This document shows positions 9,629 to 25,713 of a stretch of DNA of 35,990 bases, one piece after another (within the stretch, counting starts at the first letter, position 1; every line of letters starts with the position of its first letter). The notes under the pieces were generated by a model. The model was not told where the DNA came from and ran no database searches. It was given only the letters and a program-made list of their open reading frames with translations. Source of the stretch: an uncultured Myxococcales bacterium (GTDB lineage Bacteria > Myxococcota_A > UBA9042); contig CAIPXZ010000190.1 of the NCBI GenBank assembly GCA_903869075.1, positions 1 to 35,990 of the forward strand, given 5' to 3'. Position numbers and translations under genes: made by a program.

Positions 9629-11416
9629 CTAGCCGGCAAAGACCCGCAGGCAATTGCGGCCGGCGGCCTGGGCCGCGTGCATCGCCGTCTCCGCTTGTTG
9701 CAGCAAGGGATCACCGACGGCGTTGTCGTCGGGATAGACACTGAGGCCGATGCTGAACGATACCGATGCCGCGCGGCCGTTGACGAGCAACGGCTCCTGT
9801 AGCTGGTCCAGCAGCCGGGCGGCGTGCAGCACCGCGCTGGCGTTGTCGGCCACGGGCGTCAGCAGCACGACGAATTCCTCAGGCGCCATCCGCCCGGCCG
9901 TGTCGCTGCCGCGCACGGACGCCTGCAGCCGCTGCGCCACCGCCCGCGACACTGCGTCGCCCGTGCCGTCCGCCGGGTCCGACGGCGCGCGGCTGAACCA
10001 ATCCACGTGGATGCAAAGGACCGCGAACCGGCCGTTGTCGCGGCGCGCGTCCTCGACGGCCTGCTCCATGCGGTCCAGCAGCAGCAGCCGGTTCGGCAGA
10101 CCGGTCAGCGCATCCTGGTGCGCCAGCCGCGCCATGCGAATCGCCAGCGCGCGGGCCTCGCTGACGTCGTGCGCCACCACGACCACACCTGACGGCAGGC
10201 CGGCGGAGTCGTGCAGGGACGACAGCGAATACTCGACGGCGAGCTGCGACCCATCCCGCCGCAGCAGCCACGCCGCGCGCTTGTGCGGACCGGCATTTTG
10301 CCCGGCGATCGCCGCGCGCAGGTGATCCGCCTCCAGCTCGCCGGAGAACGCCCGCAGCGCCAGCACCGCCACGAGCGGCTGACCGATCGCCTCCGCCTGC
10401 GACAAGCGCGTCAGCGCCTCCGCCACGGGGTTCAGGTAGACGACGCGGCCCGCGGCATCCGCCGTCAATACCGCCTCGGTGATCGCCCCCAGCGTCGTCC
10501 GCGCCGCTTCCTTCTCGGCGTACAGCGCGTTTTCGGCAGTGCGGCGCGCGGTGATGTCCGTGAACATCACAAAGAAACCCTGCACTTCGCCGTCGCGCAC
10601 GTCCGGCACATAGGACGCCTGCGAATACACGACCTTGCCGTCCAGGCTCACGACGTCGCGGTAGAACACTTGCGCCTCGCCGCGCAGCGCCGCCTCGATG
10701 TGCGGCAGGTTCGCCCGGTACATCGGTTCGCCGACGACGTCGCGGATATGCTGGCCGCGCAGCGACTCCGGCGGGATGCCGAACCAATCGTAATACGCCT
10801 GGTTGGCGTGGCGGTTGCGCAGGTCGCGGTCCCAGTAGCCGATCAGCGCCGGCATGTGGTCCAGCACCATCCGCAGCTCGGCGGTCAGCCGTGTGCGCTC
10901 CGTCTCCGCCTGCTCGTACTCCACCGTCCGCCGCCGCAGCGTCAGCAGCTGCAGCACCTGCCCCGCCAGCAGCTCCAGCTGCCGCAGCGTGTCCTCGTCC
11001 AGCGGCCGCGGCACCACGTCCATCGCGCACAGCGCGCCCAGCGGGTAGCCCTCCGGCGAGCGCAGCGGCACGCCCGCGTACGCGCGCACGTGCGGCGGGC
11101 CAAGCACCAGCGGGCTGTCGGCGAACCGCGGATCCGCCAGCGTATCGGGCACCAGCAGCGGCGCGTTGTCGTGCACGACGTGGGCGCAAAACGCCGTGTC
11201 GCGCGGCGTCTCGCGGGTCAGTGCGCCGTGGTGCGCCTTGAACCACTGCCGGTCCGCGTCGACAAGCGAGATGAACACGAGCGGCACATTCAGCAGCCGC
11301 GCCGCCAGCTCGACGAGCGCGTCAAAAGCCGGCTCCTCCGCCGTGTCCAGGATGTGATACCGCGCCAGCGCGGCGAGGCGGGCCGCTTCATCGGCTGGTT
11401 TGGCGGCAACCTGCAT
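9629..11416 (-). CDS. GAF-PAS-PAS protein with degenerate GGDEF domain
   Basis: The 595-residue protein has no signal peptide or membrane segment. Residues ~15-160 are a GAF domain of the type that starts ARYHILDTAEEPAFD and contains GVPLRSPEGYPLGALC. PAS domains follow at ~185-295 (MLDHMPALIGYWDRDLR-like start, YDWFGIPPESLRG) and ~300-420. Residues ~432-595 are GGDEF-like (LTGLPNR at ~436), but the signature is A511-P-E-E-F instead of GGDEF and the first metal Asp is His (IHVDWF). The inhibitory-site motif RxxD (R502, D505) is kept at the correct five-residue distance. It is therefore probably a c-di-GMP receptor or regulatory pseudo-cyclase rather than an active diguanylate cyclase. It lies 86 nt downstream of the NACHT-like gene, so co-transcription is possible. 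Confidence 0.85.
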   Translation of the reverse strand: MQVAAKPADEAARLAALARYHILDTAEEPAFDALVELAARLLNVPLVFISLVDADRQWFKAHHGALTRETPRDTAFCAHVVHDNAPLLVPDTLADPRFADSPLVLGPPHVRAYAGVPLRSPEGYPLGALCAMDVVPRPLDEDTLRQLELLAGQVLQLLTLRRRTVEYEQAETERTRLTAELRMVLDHMPALIGYWDRDLRNRHANQAYYDWFGIPPESLRGQHIRDVVGEPMYRANLPHIEAALRGEAQVFYRDVVSLDGKVVYSQASYVPDVRDGEVQGFFVMFTDITARRTAENALYAEKEAARTTLGAITEAVLTADAAGRVVYLNPVAEALTRLSQAEAIGQPLVAVLALRAFSGELEADHLRAAIAGQNAGPHKRAAWLLRRDGSQLAVEYSLSSLHDSAGLPSGVVVVAHDVSEARALAIRMARLAHQDALTGLPNRLLLLDRMEQAVEDARRDNGRFAVLCIHVDWFSRAPSDPADGTGDAVSRAVAQRLQASVRGSDTAGRMAPEEFVVLLTPVADNASAVLHAARLLDQLQEPLLVNGRAASVSFSIGLSVYPDDNAVGDPLLQQAETAMHAAQAAGRNCLRVFAG

Positions 11417-11502: not shown

Positions 11503-13038
11503 TTACGGCGTGCTGATTGTGCCTTCCATCGAGCTGATTGTGTTCTTGGTGCACAACTTCCAGTGCGTCGCCTCATAACCGCTGCGCATTTGTTGAATAA
11601 TCTGCGGCCGCGCCTTGCCAATGGGCAAACCAGCATCGAGTATTTCCACCTGATCCGCCTTCAAATTCTTGATCCGGCTGCAGCGGTCGTCCAGCAGCGG
11701 CATCAGACATTTCAGGCCAGCCGGCTCGGCGATCAGGAAGCGGAACACCTCGTCATCCTTGATAAACTCCGCGTGCTTGAAGGCTGCGCTGCAGTTGCCA
11801 GCTTTTTGCGTCGCCAGCTCGGCATCGATCCACCGTGCCACAAATAGATCCGCGAGGCTGGTGCTGGCGAACGCGACGGCCGGCTCGCCGGCGATCGGCC
11901 GGAACAGCGCGGACTGGAACAGTTTTTCGCAGACGCGCTCGTGATTCTCGTCTGAAGTCTGGCTAGCCGTGTCGACAACTGCCTTGCAATCCGCCAGATC
12001 GAGGCGGACGTCCGCGCGCTCCTCGCGGCGCAATTTCGGCGCCACAAGCCGATCGACAAGCGTCAACGCCTGCGCCTCGTTCCAGCCCAACTCCCGCAAT
12101 TCCTTGGTCAACCGCGCGCCGACGAGCGCCTCGTGCACATGCGCCCGGCTGACAATCAGCTCGGATTTGGGTTCCATCGATTTGTGGTGAAAATCAATCA
12201 GCGTCTTGATGTCGCCAAAGCTGGCGAGGTACGGATATGTGCAATCATCCGCCACGGTCGCCCGTTCATCCAAGCCATAGCGGTGCAGGAATTGCAGGAA
12301 TTGTTGGCGCGCCGTCGCGTCTTTGATGGCCGTGGCGATAAACGCGTCGGTGTCCTTGCACTGCAACGTGTGGATGGCAAAGTGCGCGTCCAGCGCCGTG
12401 AAGCCGTAGTCCGCGTCCAGCACCGGCGGCCGCGCCAGCAAAATGAACTGCGCCGCCGGCAGCTTGGCCACGGCGTCATTCCAGGCCAGCAGCACCACGT
12501 TGCGCCGCGCGGTCTCGACCTCGTCCACGCCGTCCAGCAGGAACAGCGCGCGGCCGGCCGCGACCTCCTGGACAAACGCCGCCACGTCCGGCCCCGTCTC
12601 CGCCTGCACCGCAGCGAACAACGGGTTGCCGGCGCCGCTGGAATTCGCCACCGCCTTGGCGTCCACCAAAAACACCGGCAGCTTGCCGCACAGCTGGCCA
12701 CGCAGGGACTCCGCCAGCCGCGACTTGCCCAGCCCGCCGCGGGCAAAGATCGACGCGCGCTTGACCTCGCCCTTGGCCAGCACGTCCACAAGCTGCGCTT
12801 CGCTGAGCATCGTCTCGGCGTGCCCGGGCCACTGCGCGACAACCAGCGTCATCGGCGTGTAGTTGTTCTGCGCCTTCTCATGGCGCTGCGTGCCGGCATT
12901 GAATTCGCACTTTTTGCCGTACGCCAGCGCCTGCGGACTCTGCGGCCCGCTGACTTGCGCCGTACCGCCGCCGCACCCCGTCAACGCCGCCGCCGCCAGC
13001 AGCGCCGCGACGTTTTGCCTCCAAGCCATCGCCGTCAT
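11503..13038 (-). CDS. predicted lipoprotein with NACHT-like STAND NTPase domain
   Basis: The 511-residue protein starts at an ATG with GAGG six nt upstream, 21 nt after the SurA-like gene. Residues 1-22 form a lipoprotein signal (basic start, hydrophobic AALLAAAALTGC; lipobox LTGC, Cys22, followed by Gly, not an inner-membrane-retention Asp). Residues ~93-235 are a NACHT-type NTPase: P-loop FARGGLGKSRLAE (Lys105, Ser106), Walker B ALFLLDGVDEVE (residues 164-175, the DGxDE hallmark), and a sensor-1-like FILLARP (198-204). Residues ~235-400 are helical, as after other NACHT modules; the last ~110 are unclassified. Ten cysteines after Cys22 fit an oxidising compartment. NACHT proteins are normally cytosolic signalling ATPases, so export is puzzling. 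Later in-frame ATGs (residues 63, 77) lack a clear ribosome site. Function unknown. Confidence 0.75.
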   Translation of the reverse strand: MTAMAWRQNVAALLAAAALTGCGGGTAQVSGPQSPQALAYGKKCEFNAGTQRHEKAQNNYTPMTLVVAQWPGHAETMLSEAQLVDVLAKGEVKRASIFARGGLGKSRLAESLRGQLCGKLPVFLVDAKAVANSSGAGNPLFAAVQAETGPDVAAFVQEVAAGRALFLLDGVDEVETARRNVVLLAWNDAVAKLPAAQFILLARPPVLDADYGFTALDAHFAIHTLQCKDTDAFIATAIKDATARQQFLQFLHRYGLDERATVADDCTYPYLASFGDIKTLIDFHHKSMEPKSELIVSRAHVHEALVGARLTKELRELGWNEAQALTLVDRLVAPKLRREERADVRLDLADCKAVVDTASQTSDENHERVCEKLFQSALFRPIAGEPAVAFASTSLADLFVARWIDAELATQKAGNCSAAFKHAEFIKDDEVFRFLIAEPAGLKCLMPLLDDRCSRIKNLKADQVEILDAGLPIGKARPQIIQQMRSGYEATHWKLCTKNTISSMEGTISTP

Positions 13039-13059
13039 GATTTGCCTCGCCCGCGGCCG

Positions 13060-14118
13060 CTACAGCCGGACGTCAATGTGGGCACTGCCGCGCATCTCAT
13101 CCAGCCAGGCCTTGTAGAGCTTGGTGAACTGCTCTTCCTGCAGGCGCGCGCGGACAAATTGCTCCAGCACTTCCTTGTCCTTGACCGGCACCCGCCGCCG
13201 CTCGAGGAACTGGATGATGTGAAAGCCATACGGCGTCTGGACCACCGTCGAGATTTCGCCCGGTTGCAGCGACCACAGCTTGCCGCCAAAGGTCGGATCC
13301 AGCGTCCAGCGCTTCTGCCAGCCCAGGTCGCCGTGGCCCTCGGACGTCGCCGAGTCGTCATTGCAGTCGTCCGCCACTTCGTCCCACGGCTTTTTGTGCA
13401 CCGCCACGTCGTCGTAGCAATGCCAGGCGCGGTCGCGCAGCTCGGTCACGCGCTGCGGGCTGGCGTCATCGGGCACGCCGATCAGCATGTGCCGCGAGTG
13501 CACCTCGTCCTCAAACTGCCCGCCGGCGTATTCCTGGTCGATGATGCGCTTGACCTCGTCCTCGGTCACCCGCAGCTTGCCGGCGATCTTCGCCCGCAGC
13601 ATCTGCACCCGCACCATCTCCGTGCGCACGTGCGCGCGGTACGCCGCGAGCGTCGGAAAGCCCATGTTGCGGACGATCTCCTCGAATTCGTCCAGCGTCT
13701 TGTGCATCCGCTTGCGCGTCTGGTCGATTTGCCCGTCGACCTCGCCATCGCTGACGACGAGGCCCAAGTCTTTCGCGGCCTTGGCTACCAGCGCGTTGTC
13801 GATCAGCGTGTCCAGCGTCTGCTTGCGCAGCGCCTCGGGGCTGCGCGGCTCGGCGGTCTGGATCGGGTCATTGCCGCCGCGCGTCTGGCCCATCGCCCGG
13901 CGCAGCTCGCTCTGCAAAATCGCCGTATCGCCGACGGTGGCGACGACGCCGTCCACCTCCTGATAGCCCTGCGGCAACGTCGCGCGGCGCACCGCCAGCA
14001 CCGGCTTCTGCGGCTTGGCCGGCTCTTCCTTGCCCGGCGGCGGCGGATCCGCGGCAAACGCCGCCAGCGGCACAGCCAGCAGCGCCAGCGCCGCCAGCGT
14101 AGGGGTCAGTTTGCACAT
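13060..14118 (-). CDS. SurA-like periplasmic parvulin peptidyl-prolyl isomerase
   Basis: The 352-residue protein has a Sec signal peptide (TLAALALLAVPLAAFAA, cleavage near residue 23). A SurA-type N-terminal chaperone region spans ~55-200 (VDGVVATVGDTAILQSELRRAM, LRKQTLDTLIDNALVAKAAKD). One parvulin domain spans ~203-310: HSRHMLIGVPDD, DLGWQKRWTLDPTFGGKLW, LQPGEISTVVQTPYGFHIIQFLERR. A cysteine pair lies inside the isomerase domain. SurA-like proteins chaperone outer-membrane proteins and catalyse proline cis-trans isomerisation. There is one isomerase domain where E. coli SurA has two. The start lies 3 nt after the upstream parvulin-lipoprotein stop, so the two are translationally coupled; the NACHT-like lipoprotein follows after 21 nt. 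Confidence 0.88.
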   Translation of the reverse strand: MCKLTPTLAALALLAVPLAAFAADPPPPGKEEPAKPQKPVLAVRRATLPQGYQEVDGVVATVGDTAILQSELRRAMGQTRGGNDPIQTAEPRSPEALRKQTLDTLIDNALVAKAAKDLGLVVSDGEVDGQIDQTRKRMHKTLDEFEEIVRNMGFPTLAAYRAHVRTEMVRVQMLRAKIAGKLRVTEDEVKRIIDQEYAGGQFEDEVHSRHMLIGVPDDASPQRVTELRDRAWHCYDDVAVHKKPWDEVADDCNDDSATSEGHGDLGWQKRWTLDPTFGGKLWSLQPGEISTVVQTPYGFHIIQFLERRRVPVKDKEVLEQFVRARLQEEQFTKLYKAWLDEMRGSAHIDVRL

Positions 14119-14121
14119 GGC

Positions 14122-15237
14122 TTACAGCTCAGACGGCGTCGGATCCGCCGGTTGCTTGTTGTTGGAGACGCCTGGCGGCACGGCGCCCTGGCCCGGCGCG
14201 CCCTTGCCCTTGCCCGCTGGCGGTTGCACCGGCAGCAGGCGCAGCGCGTCGTCGTTCAGGTCGATCTTCGCCGCGGCGCGCAGGTCGTCGACCAGCTTCT
14301 GGCGGCGCAGGTCGCGCTCGCGCTTGACGATGCGGGTGCGAATGGAGTCGCGGACATCGGCAAAAGCCTTGTCCACAGCTGGAATTTTCGAGGTCACCAT
14401 CAGCACATGCCAGCCCTGCGGCGACTGCACCGGCGTGCCGATGGTAAAGATTTCGCGGCCCATCGCCGCCTCAATGACCTGCGCCGGCACCCGCGCCAGC
14501 CGCTCGAGATCTGCCGGCGCCGCGCCCGACGGCGGCGTCCGCGACACAAGCCCCAGCGAGCCGAGGTACGGAATCGTCGCCTGATCCTGCGACAGCCGCC
14601 CGACGTAGTCGTTCCACGCCACCACGAGCTTGGCCGACGCGCCTTCCGACGCCGACCGCAGTTCTTTGGCGATGCGCTCTGCCGTCGCCGCGTCCGCGAC
14701 AAGGATGTGGCTGACCTCGACCTGCTCCGGCTTGTGGTACAGCCCGGGATTGGCGTCGTAATACTTCTGCAAGTCCGCGTCCGTAAAGCTCTCCGGCTTG
14801 ACAGCTTCCACCGCCGTGTCCGCCAGGAACTTGCGCACCATCGCCTGCTTGGCGGCTTCCAGCACTTCCGGATCGCTCGCCAGCCCGCGCCGCGCCGCTT
14901 CCGCCGCCAGCAGCTCGAACTGCACGAGACTCGTCAGGTATTCCTTGCGCTTTTGCGTGCTGGCAAACTGACTGCGCACCACCGCCGGCTCATGCGCCAG
15001 CCGCGCCTCGATCTCGCCCAGCGTGATCGTGTGGTCGCCAATGCGCGCCACCACGGTCGCGCGCTGCTCCGCGGTCAGCTGGGAATCGTCGAGGTTGATG
15101 TGCGCGTTCGGCACCTGTTCCACCGTCGCCTGCTGCGCTTTCTCGGTGATGCCGGGACCCGCCGGATGCGGCCGCGCGGGCTTGCCGCACGCGACGGTGG
15201 CGAGGAGGAGGGGCAAAAGGGCGAAGTTTCGGCGCAT
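14122..15237 (-). CDS. PpiC-type parvulin lipoprotein (PrsA/SurA-like foldase)
   Basis: The 371-residue protein starts at the ATG at 15237, chosen for the GGAGG just upstream and the lipoprotein signal that follows (NFALLPLLLATVAC, lipobox TVAC at about residue 17); the frame extends further upstream without coding character. A SurA_N-like region (VVARIGDHTITLGEIEARLA, then LVQFELLAAEAARRGL) is followed at ~170-310 by a parvulin domain: QVEVSHILVAD, YLGSLGLVSR, FTIGTPVQSPQGWHVLMVTSK. The tail is Pro/Gly/Lys-rich. It should act as a lipid-anchored periplasmic prolyl isomerase and chaperone. It is the first gene of a minus-strand run with the SurA-like and NACHT-like genes. Confidence 0.88.
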   Translation of the reverse strand: MRRNFALLPLLLATVACGKPARPHPAGPGITEKAQQATVEQVPNAHINLDDSQLTAEQRATVVARIGDHTITLGEIEARLAHEPAVVRSQFASTQKRKEYLTSLVQFELLAAEAARRGLASDPEVLEAAKQAMVRKFLADTAVEAVKPESFTDADLQKYYDANPGLYHKPEQVEVSHILVADAATAERIAKELRSASEGASAKLVVAWNDYVGRLSQDQATIPYLGSLGLVSRTPPSGAAPADLERLARVPAQVIEAAMGREIFTIGTPVQSPQGWHVLMVTSKIPAVDKAFADVRDSIRTRIVKRERDLRRQKLVDDLRAAAKIDLNDDALRLLPVQPPAGKGKGAPGQGAVPPGVSNNKQPADPTPSEL

Positions 15238-15325
15238 GCAAACCTCCGCCCAAGGGGACGGCGGGTGTGTTTTGGCAGGTTTGGCGCAGCGGCGCAACCT
15301 CCGATGCACCGAGCCCGAGGACATC

Positions 15326-15354
15326 TTGACACGATCCGGCGCAAGCCCCAGCCT
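15326..15354 (+). promoter_or_regulatory. candidate promoter in the divergent region before the STT3-tail-like gene
   Basis: TTGACA (15326-15331), a perfect -35 consensus, is followed after 17 bp by CAGCCT (15349-15354), which keeps only A2 and T6 of a -10. It lies 40 nt before the ATG at 15394 within the 156-bp divergent intergenic region shared with the parvulin lipoprotein gene on the other strand. The -10 is poor, so this is a weak call. Confidence 0.25.
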
Positions 15355-15386
15355 CAGCCGGCCCGGGCCACCGCCCGCTGTCCATG

Positions 15387-15454
15387 CTGACCGATGTCCA
15401 ACGTCCCAAACTTCCCGGTCAGACCTGTCGCATTTCGGAGTAGATCCGGGCGCG
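15387..15454 (+). repeat. imperfect direct repeat, copy A (overlaps gene start)
   Basis: CTGACCGATGTCC (15387-15399) is identical to 16215-16227. The following ~55 bp align with copy B with one 1-nt gap; the last 35 bp match at 27 positions (CAGACC-GT-GCAT-TCGGA-T-GATCC pattern). Copy A contains the ATG of the STT3-tail-like gene. Confidence 0.75.
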
Positions 15455-24684: not shown

Positions 24685-25713
24685 ATGTTCGGCAAAAAGC
24701 TCCTTCCTTTCGCCTGTTGTGCGCTGCTCGCCGCGGCCTGCCAGAAGCCCGCTGAGGCGCCGCCACCTGCGCCTGCACCCGCGCCCGCGCCTGCACCCGC
24801 GCCCGCGCCTGCGCCCGCGCCGGAAGCTGCCAAGCCGGTGCCGCCGCCCGCGCCGGTCTCACCGAGTGCGTCGCCTGGCCTGCCGCCGCCGGCTGGCGCG
24901 GCTGTGGAAAAAGTGCTGAACGACCCGTGCCCGGCGCCGGGTGAAGATCCCGCCGCGTGCCCGGCCAAGCCGGCGACCGTGGACGACAACATCAAGGTCG
25001 CGCACGTGCTCGTCGGTTGGCAGGGTTCACTGCCAGGCAAGGCCACGACGCGCACCAAGGCCGAGGCGCTCAAGCTGGCCTCGGAGATCGCCCACGAGGC
25101 GCGCAAGCCGGGCAATGACTTCATCGGCCTTGTGTGGAAGCACTCGGACGACAACGGTCCCGGCGTGTACGACGTGACGCCGCCGATGCGCGGCCGCTAT
25201 GTGCCGCAGTTCACCGCGCTGGCGACTTCGCTGGGCGTGGGCCAGGTGGACATCGTGGAGACGCGCTTTGGCTACCACGTGATGAAGCGCGTGCCGTTCG
25301 ACTTCAAGGCGCCGGACAAGCCGCTGATCAAAGTGCTGACCGACGCCTGCCCGCTGCCGGGCGAGGATCCGACGACCTGCCCGACCGAGCAGAATCCCAA
25401 GCCGACCAAGACGACGGTCAGCCACATCCTCATCGGCTTCCAGGGCTCGCTGCCGGGCGAGAACGTGCCGCTGACCAAGGAAGAGGCCAAGAAAAAGGCC
25501 ATTGAAATCGCGCATCAGGCCCGCAAGAAGGGCGCCGACTTTGGCGTGCTGATGAAAGCCAACAGCAAGGACCCGGGTCCGGGCACCTACCCCGTGGACG
25601 CCAACGCGCAGCTGGTGCCGCCGTTCAAGCAGCTGGGCCTGTCGCTGGGCAAGGGCCAGATCGACATCGTCGAGACGAGCTTTGGCTACCACGTGATGAA
25701 GCGCGTCGAATAA
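24685..25713 (+). CDS. lipoprotein with two tandem parvulin domains
   Basis: The 342-residue protein starts at an ATG at 24685. The signal LLPFACCALLAAAC gives a lipobox (AAAC, about residue 19), followed by a Pro/Ala linker (~residues 23-70). Two parvulin (PpiC) domains follow, ~95-208 and ~235-342. Each is preceded by a matching Cys-pair segment (DPCPAPGEDPAACP and DACPLPGEDPTTCP) and each shows AHVLVGWQGSLPG or SHILIGFQGSLPG, an AxxxAxEIAHxAR helix, and an end VDIVET-FGYHVMKRV. The two copies clearly arose by internal duplication. It should act as a lipid-anchored periplasmic prolyl isomerase; the Cys pair could be a disulfide clasp. It is 15 nt before pheS, so transcription may be shared. 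Confidence 0.88.
   Translation: MFGKKLLPFACCALLAAACQKPAEAPPPAPAPAPAPAPAPAPAPAPEAAKPVPPPAPVSPSASPGLPPPAGAAVEKVLNDPCPAPGEDPAACPAKPATVDDNIKVAHVLVGWQGSLPGKATTRTKAEALKLASEIAHEARKPGNDFIGLVWKHSDDNGPGVYDVTPPMRGRYVPQFTALATSLGVGQVDIVETRFGYHVMKRVPFDFKAPDKPLIKVLTDACPLPGEDPTTCPTEQNPKPTKTTVSHILIGFQGSLPGENVPLTKEEAKKKAIEIAHQARKKGADFGVLMKANSKDPGPGTYPVDANAQLVPPFKQLGLSLGKGQIDIVETSFGYHVMKRVE
24772..24823 (+). repeat. 18-bp tandem repeat encoding the Pro/Ala linker
   Basis: CCTGCACCCGCGCCCGCG occurs at 24772-24789 and again exactly at 24790-24807, with a third, partial and slightly changed copy from 24808. It encodes alternating Pro-Ala, a stiff spacer lifting the parvulin domains from the membrane. Such a repeat is prone to in-frame length change. 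Confidence 0.85.

Follow-up and report, generated by a model that had tools for sequence, protein, structure and literature searches.

Predicted lipid-anchored NACHT/NLR-module proteins of Myxococcota and their linkage to a translocase-type fusion gene

The window analysed here is the whole 35,990 nt stretch of contig CAIPXZ010000190.1 (positions 1 to 35,990, assembly GCA_903869075.1) from an uncultured Myxococcales bacterium (Myxococcota_A, UBA9042). Its reverse strand carries a gene predicted to encode an exported lipoprotein whose mature part is modelled as the nucleotide-binding module of NLR proteins. Genes of this family were found to be linked to, and to co-occur with, a fusion gene that includes an ATP/ADP-translocase (NTT) fold, an association newly found here. 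The gene and the features of its product are:

11503 to 13038, minus strand: gene for the predicted lipid-anchored NACHT/NLR-module protein, 511 amino acids (aa), stop included (ATG at 13038, stop codon at 11505-11503).
13045 to 13048, minus strand: Shine-Dalgarno-like GAGG, 6 nt 5' of the ATG, read directly from the sequence.
12973 to 13038, minus strand: predicted type II (lipoprotein) signal peptide, residues 1-22, with lipobox LTGC, Cys22 and Gly at +2 (no Asp).
12721 to 12744, minus strand: Walker A, ARGGLGKS, residues 99-106; G102, G104 and K105 are invariant in an alignment of 74 sequences.
12520 to 12546, minus strand: Walker B strand and DGVDE (FLLDGVDE), residues 165-173, with DGVDE at 169-173; D169 in 87/87 and E173 in 85/87.
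12427 to 12441, minus strand: sensor-1 motif LLARP, residues 200-204; R203 in 87/87.
12211 to 12243, minus strand: HD1 motif C266-T-Y-P269-Y-L...D276; C266 in 84/87, P269 in 64/87 and D276 in 85/87.
11506 to 12006, minus strand: WHD and HD2 portion (residues 345-511), containing C351, C370, C416, C444, C453 and C496; in the model it aligns to NLRC4 as far as residue 603.

The N-terminus (MTAMAWRQNVAALLAAAALTGC22) had been described from the sequence alone as a near-textbook lipobox, LTGC with Cys22, and this description holds family-wide. In an alignment of 88 family sequences, Cys22 is present in 83/85 and is retained even as the signal region around it evolves fast. The signal was called by simple rules and from the alignment of the family. 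An automatic lipobox rule was positive for 67/82 family members versus 58/404 neighbouring genes, and alignment placed the start codon and a lipoprotein-like Cys, at position 17-39, in 82 members, within the span of about 15-40 residues typical of lipoproteins. Exceptions are the copy in genome G051, which has a signal-peptidase-I-type signal (MTRLIMFAIPFLLLLPAGQAGA), and the C262 copy (genome G000) and the G272 copy, which begin with a transmembrane (TM) segment yet retain most of the cysteines; all three variants are predicted to leave the NACHT module outside. The residue at +2 is mainly Gly or Ser and never Asp. In E. coli the +2 residue directs lipoprotein sorting, and the Gly/Ser pattern seen here fits the outer membrane.

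Homologues that begin near residue 63 and lack the lipobox were not found in the family, whose members conserve both the lipobox region and C44; a start at Met63 was likewise discarded, residues upstream of it being conserved. The lipobox Cys and DGxDE are both retained in homologues, at the frequencies given above. By its sequence the protein is a bacterial lipoprotein, with lipidation and envelope location predicted, and export is close to certain on the same basis. A cytosolic protein with a false signal was discarded, given the conserved lipobox and cysteines and the alternative export signals of relatives. The cysteines and those alternative signals also contradict a cytosolic domain held atypically at the membrane.

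Exactly ten cysteines follow Cys22, and each of them (C44, C117, C227, C266, C351, C370, C416, C444, C453 and C496) is kept in 84-87 sequences, which extends to the whole family the earlier observation that ten mature cysteines fit an oxidising location. C227 and C266 are jointly absent in L096, L102, L037 and G272, as expected of a disulfide pair, although three of these four sequences sit in one poorly resolved basal group and the independent losses may be fewer than four. VKOR, a disulfide-forming enzyme, is present in 22/22 genomes of the taxonomic family to which the window belongs. Disulfides very probably form.

Pfam recognises the NACHT domain poorly: the window protein scores 15.8 bits (E 0.013) versus a curated cut-off of 26.7, and 26/74 family members match at E<=1, the best at 2.1e-7. 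Because the family sequence profile, when compared with the PDB, returned no NLR and only the P-loop of ArsA, the NLR assignment relies on structure comparison. An AlphaFold (AF2) model built from 74 family sequences has a pLDDT of 91.3 and a pTM of 0.88, and its 44 best Foldseek matches are all NLRs. VIA-align gave the activated form of NLRC4 (6b5b_B) a Z of 17.2 over 409 residues at 4.4 A. The superposition spans residues 33-509 of the model and 95-602 of NLRC4, which is NBD-HD1-WHD-HD2 without CARD or LRR, and the model is thus that of a complete NBD-HD1-WHD-HD2 module as in NLRC4, NLRP3 and NOD2. This agrees with the NACHT/STAND fold proposed in the sequence-only reading, and with its central claim of a lipid-anchored exported NACHT protein. 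Before the NBD there is no effector or adaptor domain, only the signal peptide, a linker and one helix. There are also no C-terminal sensor repeats (LRR, TPR or WD40), as the protein ends in HD2 and the NLR alignment reaches 509-510 of 511. With neither effector nor sensor repeats, the modelled protein falls outside the tripartite definition of a STAND/NLR receptor.

The motifs first recognised in the core, GGLGKS (Lys105), DGxDE (169-173) and LLARP, are all present and are conserved in the family beyond chance. They correspond to the Walker A (GxxGxGK[ST]) and Walker B (hhhDGxDE) patterns of NACHT NTPases. K105 is kept in 85/86 sequences, the first position of Walker A is occupied by A or G and position 170 by S, G or A, and P269 occupies the position of the Pro that contacts adenine in NLRs. 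A vestigial P-loop, raised earlier as an alternative, was discarded: it is contradicted by Walker A, Walker B and sensor-1 residues that are near-invariant at 20-40% identity. The conservation indicates that the P-loop is likely to be functional for a nucleotide.

The protein is no lone oddity. The family comprises approximately 90 loci with sequences that diverge to ∼20% identity, and the genome of the window carries 5 copies, the window gene falling in paralogue group II. Among 90 related genomes searched, there are 2-6 copies in each of the 22/22 genomes of the window's taxonomic family, which are freshwater 'Myxococcales' metagenome-assembled genomes (MAGs), and elsewhere in the class members occur only in G026 and G051. 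When the search was widened to 379 genomes drawn from the phylum, only the G272 copy, which is split across two contigs, was gained. The records that carry a name are MAGs listed as Myxococcales, Deltaproteobacteria or Proteobacteria, and lakes such as Baikal are the source of many. With two short peptide patterns derived from 13 closer sequences, 84,980 genomes were scanned, a search that divergent relatives would escape. Phages and plasmids searched for the family gave zero matches, and a mobile or phage origin was discarded. PADLOC models gave no match at E<=1 for the three family members tested, and a known anti-phage defence system was discarded likewise. Weak NACHT-core matches were also seen in ∼1000-aa open reading frames (ORFs) of the phylum, which are probably ordinary STAND proteins.

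Members of groups II and I form a tandem pair in L059 (651-3916), and likewise in G009, G011, G015, G017 and G019; such pairs are possible hetero-oligomer partners. The copy at L111:4914-6212, with Thr in place of the Walker A Lys and its C-terminus gone, is a likely pseudogene.

The linked fusion gene encodes an N-terminal ATP/ADP-translocase (NTT, TLC) domain fused to HEAT and cNMP-binding domains (NTT-HEAT-cNBD). In G051, the NACHT lipoprotein gene lies 38 bp downstream of the fusion gene in the same orientation and is followed by a gene for a small cNMP-binding protein. The gene order in G026 is the same, with a gap of 30 bp, and a further contig that holds the other half of the NTT gene has the order c5-c14-c9-NTT. 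These two genomes represent two taxonomic families other than that of the window. Within the window's family, linkage over 0.1-8 kb was found in eight genomes. The NACHT gene and the NTT cluster share a contig, 6-8 kb apart, in G010, G013, G020 and G009, and a convergent NACHT copy is located 99-282 bp from the NTT gene in G011, G014, G015 and G017. In G014, three family members (groups II, I and III) surround the NTT gene on one contig. With the fusion called at E<=1e-40 in 361 genomes (29 positive), it is present in 22/25 genomes with the NACHT lipoprotein versus 7/336 without.

The model of the NTT domain matches AtNTT1 (9j3m) with a Z of 36.3 over 417 residues at 2.8 A, versus a Z of 28.1 for the best non-NTT structure, of the MFS fold. 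In the PDB, the NTT sequence profile matches only the two NTT ATP/ADP carriers (E 2.5e-7 and 3.5e-5). PF03219 matches the copy in L094 (E 2.5e-6), and hydropathy indicates 9-12 TM segments in complete copies from the window's family. By this modelling the partner has the 12-TM NTT/TLC fold, and ATP/ADP transport is predicted.

Linked NTT-HEAT-cNBD genes are located at L094:1-3003, L096:6446-8032, L059:9733-12909, L082:1664-4825 and L083:1675-4866. A relative with 37% identity lies at G201:C534:11406-14417, its NTT domain portion being L245, and this genome has no NACHT lipoprotein. Of 20 NTT loci examined, 14 have as their next gene a member of a single conserved, methyltransferase-like family.

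The window gene itself is flanked by co-oriented genes:

13060 to 14118, minus strand: SurA-like periplasmic peptidyl-prolyl isomerase (PPIase; Pfam SurA_N_3 and Rotamase), immediately upstream with a gap of ∼22 bp.
14122 to 15237, minus strand: PPIase lipoprotein with lipobox TVAC (Pfam Rotamase_2), co-oriented with the NACHT lipoprotein gene.
9629 to 11416, minus strand: GAF-PAS-PAS-GGDEF protein, downstream; kept as a neighbour in 3/4 other genomes of the genus.

The SurA-like gene is probably co-transcribed with the NACHT lipoprotein gene, and its position next to it is kept within the genus. Gene order around the window copy is retained at least partly in 4 other genomes of the genus. Pairwise dN/dS (non-synonymous to synonymous substitution ratio) of the window gene with its 4 same-genus orthologues is 0.15-0.25, and the gene is therefore under purifying selection. 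An overlapping plus strand ORF (12133-15390) was discarded as an antisense frame of GC-rich coding DNA. One fixed neighbour common to all paralogues was not found, as neighbours vary by paralogue group. An additional PPIase is encoded in the window at 24685-25710; it has two rotamase stretches, and its N-terminus resembles a lipobox and leads into a Pro/Ala-rich segment. Cys-rich proteins with CDDGNPCT-type repeats (cluster c8) recur near family members, in the window at 3-716 and in L037, L039-L041, L064, L076, L100, L105 and L106.

The best overall explanation, in which we have moderate confidence, is an NLR-type lipoprotein switch of the envelope that is fed with nucleotide by the NTT. An outer-membrane-type lipoprotein would carry, as its mature part, the full NLR-type nucleotide-binding oligomerisation module (NACHT NBD, HD1, WHD and HD2), held by approximately five disulfides and acting in the periplasm or at the cell surface. 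The functional P-loop would bind, and probably hydrolyse, nucleotide that reaches the envelope, most likely delivered by an inner-membrane NTT-HEAT-cNBD exchanger, the gene for which would ancestrally have been in the same cluster. On nucleotide exchange, the lipid-anchored subunits, which may come from several paralogues, would open and cluster as NLRs do and so control an envelope process. The protein may act as a sensor in the envelope; alternatively, its PPIase neighbours might hint at a part in assembly.

The export signal, the conserved cysteines, the NLR fold, the intact nucleotide site and the transporter linkage are supported by sequence and model, and from these we infer disulfide formation, extracytoplasmic nucleotide binding, supply by the transporter, oligomerisation and the process controlled. 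Supply through the linked NTT is plausible, at slightly under an even chance, and NLR-like oligomerisation is possible but a little less likely. The sequence-only reading had raised a nucleotide source in the envelope; what stands of this is a concrete candidate, the linked NTT-type gene, whereas supply itself we only infer.

Several points weigh against this explanation. The periplasm is generally held to be free of ATP. The window copy and its genus orthologues are not adjacent to the NTT gene, which is found on a different contig. The Fisher p for co-occurrence (4e-26) ignores phylogeny, and most of the positives are from one taxonomic family; G026 and G051, in which the genes are also adjacent, give more independent support. 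Seven genomes have the fusion and lack the NACHT lipoprotein. Conversely, G005 (84% complete), G019 (67%) and G272 (with a weak NTT match, 26%) have the lipoprotein and no confident fusion. In addition, the position equivalent to the MHD-type His of the WHD, in a column assigned by eye, is N in 38 sequences, D in 21, H in 15 and S in 7, so that ADP/ATP switching may differ from that of NLRs.

The same export and active-site evidence would also suit an exported NLR-like danger sensor of extracellular nucleotide, such as ATP set free when prey is lysed, phages lyse neighbours or kin cells are breached, with the NTT as a nucleotide importer or salvage system and not the supplier. The available text of PMC5381601 describes characterised NTTs of intracellular bacteria as importers, and NACHT proteins elsewhere are sensors, according to excerpts of PMC12169576. 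We nevertheless consider such a sensor unlikely, as no ligand-sensing repeats follow HD2 and neither an effector domain nor a consistent effector neighbour was seen; Gly at +2 cannot discriminate between periplasmic and surface locations. That the window copy lies behind two SurA/PpiC-type PPIases, an arrangement conserved in the genus, might instead point to an ATP-driven envelope chaperone or assembly machine, in which the NLR module would use ATP to remodel lipids or proteins of the outer membrane. The ancestral cluster would fit such a machine in containing the apparently exported products c5 (weak similarity to ImpL63), lipoprotein c14 and c9 (weak similarity to VolA/Pla-1 lipases). However, other paralogues adjoin unrelated housekeeping genes, and STAND proteins are mostly switches and not processive remodellers, which makes this role distinctly improbable.

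Two further possibilities bear on the nucleotide site. The P-loop of the exported protein could bind a ligand other than ATP or GTP, or hold nucleotide as a structural cofactor without turnover. The absence of a conserved His at the MHD-equivalent position is consistent with this, as are the known ADP-bound structures of inactive NLRs (NOD2 entries), but sensor-1 and the Walker B acid hardly vary. As proteins normally pass through Sec unfolded, nucleotide loading before export is unlikely, and we regard either kind of binding as very doubtful. An ATP site on an exported protein would be accounted for if the lipoprotein were delivered by outer-membrane exchange and acted in the ATP-containing cytosol of a recipient, as the available portions of PMC5562445 and PMC8546572 indicate for the SitA toxins of Myxococcus. 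For the effector delivered outside the cell that the sequence-only reading had raised, the evidence speaks neither for nor against. Delivery of the SitA kind is highly improbable here: there is no toxin domain and no polymorphic C-terminus, conservation extending to C496, the cysteines fit a stably oxidised protein, and the NTT linkage would be left unexplained.

Several known systems come closest to the proposed NTT-fed envelope switch. Animal NLRs (NLRC4, NLRP3, NOD2 and NAIP5) share NBD-HD1-WHD-HD2, Walker A and B, the sensor-1 Arg and the HD1 proline, and activated NLRC4 gives the best superposition. The window protein differs in being bacterial and predicted to be exported, in lacking CARD/PYD and LRR, in its ten conserved cysteines and in an identity of only 10-15%. 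Bacterial NACHT and Avs STAND anti-phage proteins share the NACHT/STAND NTPase core, but are cytosolic and carry effector and sensor domains. Torsins and other eukaryotic ATPases of the endoplasmic reticulum lumen work outside the cytosol in oxidising surroundings to which a transporter supplies ATP, although these are AAA+ or Hsp70 proteins and not NACHT. SitA lipoproteins are likewise myxobacterial lipoproteins active beyond the usual envelope role, but have toxin domains and are transferred from cell to cell (PMC5562445, in the portion available). The only earlier periplasmic NACHT found in the literature, of which coverage was incomplete such that an unseen report is possible, is a passing prediction for target 2 of diversity-generating retroelement (DGR) 3 in Thiohalocapsa PB-PSB1 (PMC10907252). 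That protein differs in having a lectin-type CLec domain diversified by the retroelement, and the available text contains no discussion of a lipobox, cysteines or nucleotide supply. NTT-HEAT-cNBD fusions were already known, with a three-domain architecture identical to that of the linked partner and a function described as unknown, and no mention of a NACHT partner was found in the accessible parts of the source (PMC5381601).

NLR/STAND proteins are assumed to be cytosolic because they need ATP, and exported, Cys-conserved NLR modules with an intact nucleotide site contradict that rule. The family provides a minimal NLR core without effector and without sensor, and would be the first candidate partner for the NTT-HEAT-cNBD fusions, as far as these are covered by the available text of PMC5381601. 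Given the linked ATP/ADP-translocase-like gene, periplasmic ATP supply in bacteria becomes directly testable. We suggest, tentatively and with more doubt than belief, that these genes may specify a new extracytoplasmic ATP-powered switch, in which lipid-anchored, disulfide-bonded NLR modules at the outer membrane use periplasmic ATP provided via a cyclic-nucleotide-controlled NTT-HEAT-cNBD translocase. If extracytoplasmic use of nucleotide were shown, there is a real chance that the system would be categorically new.
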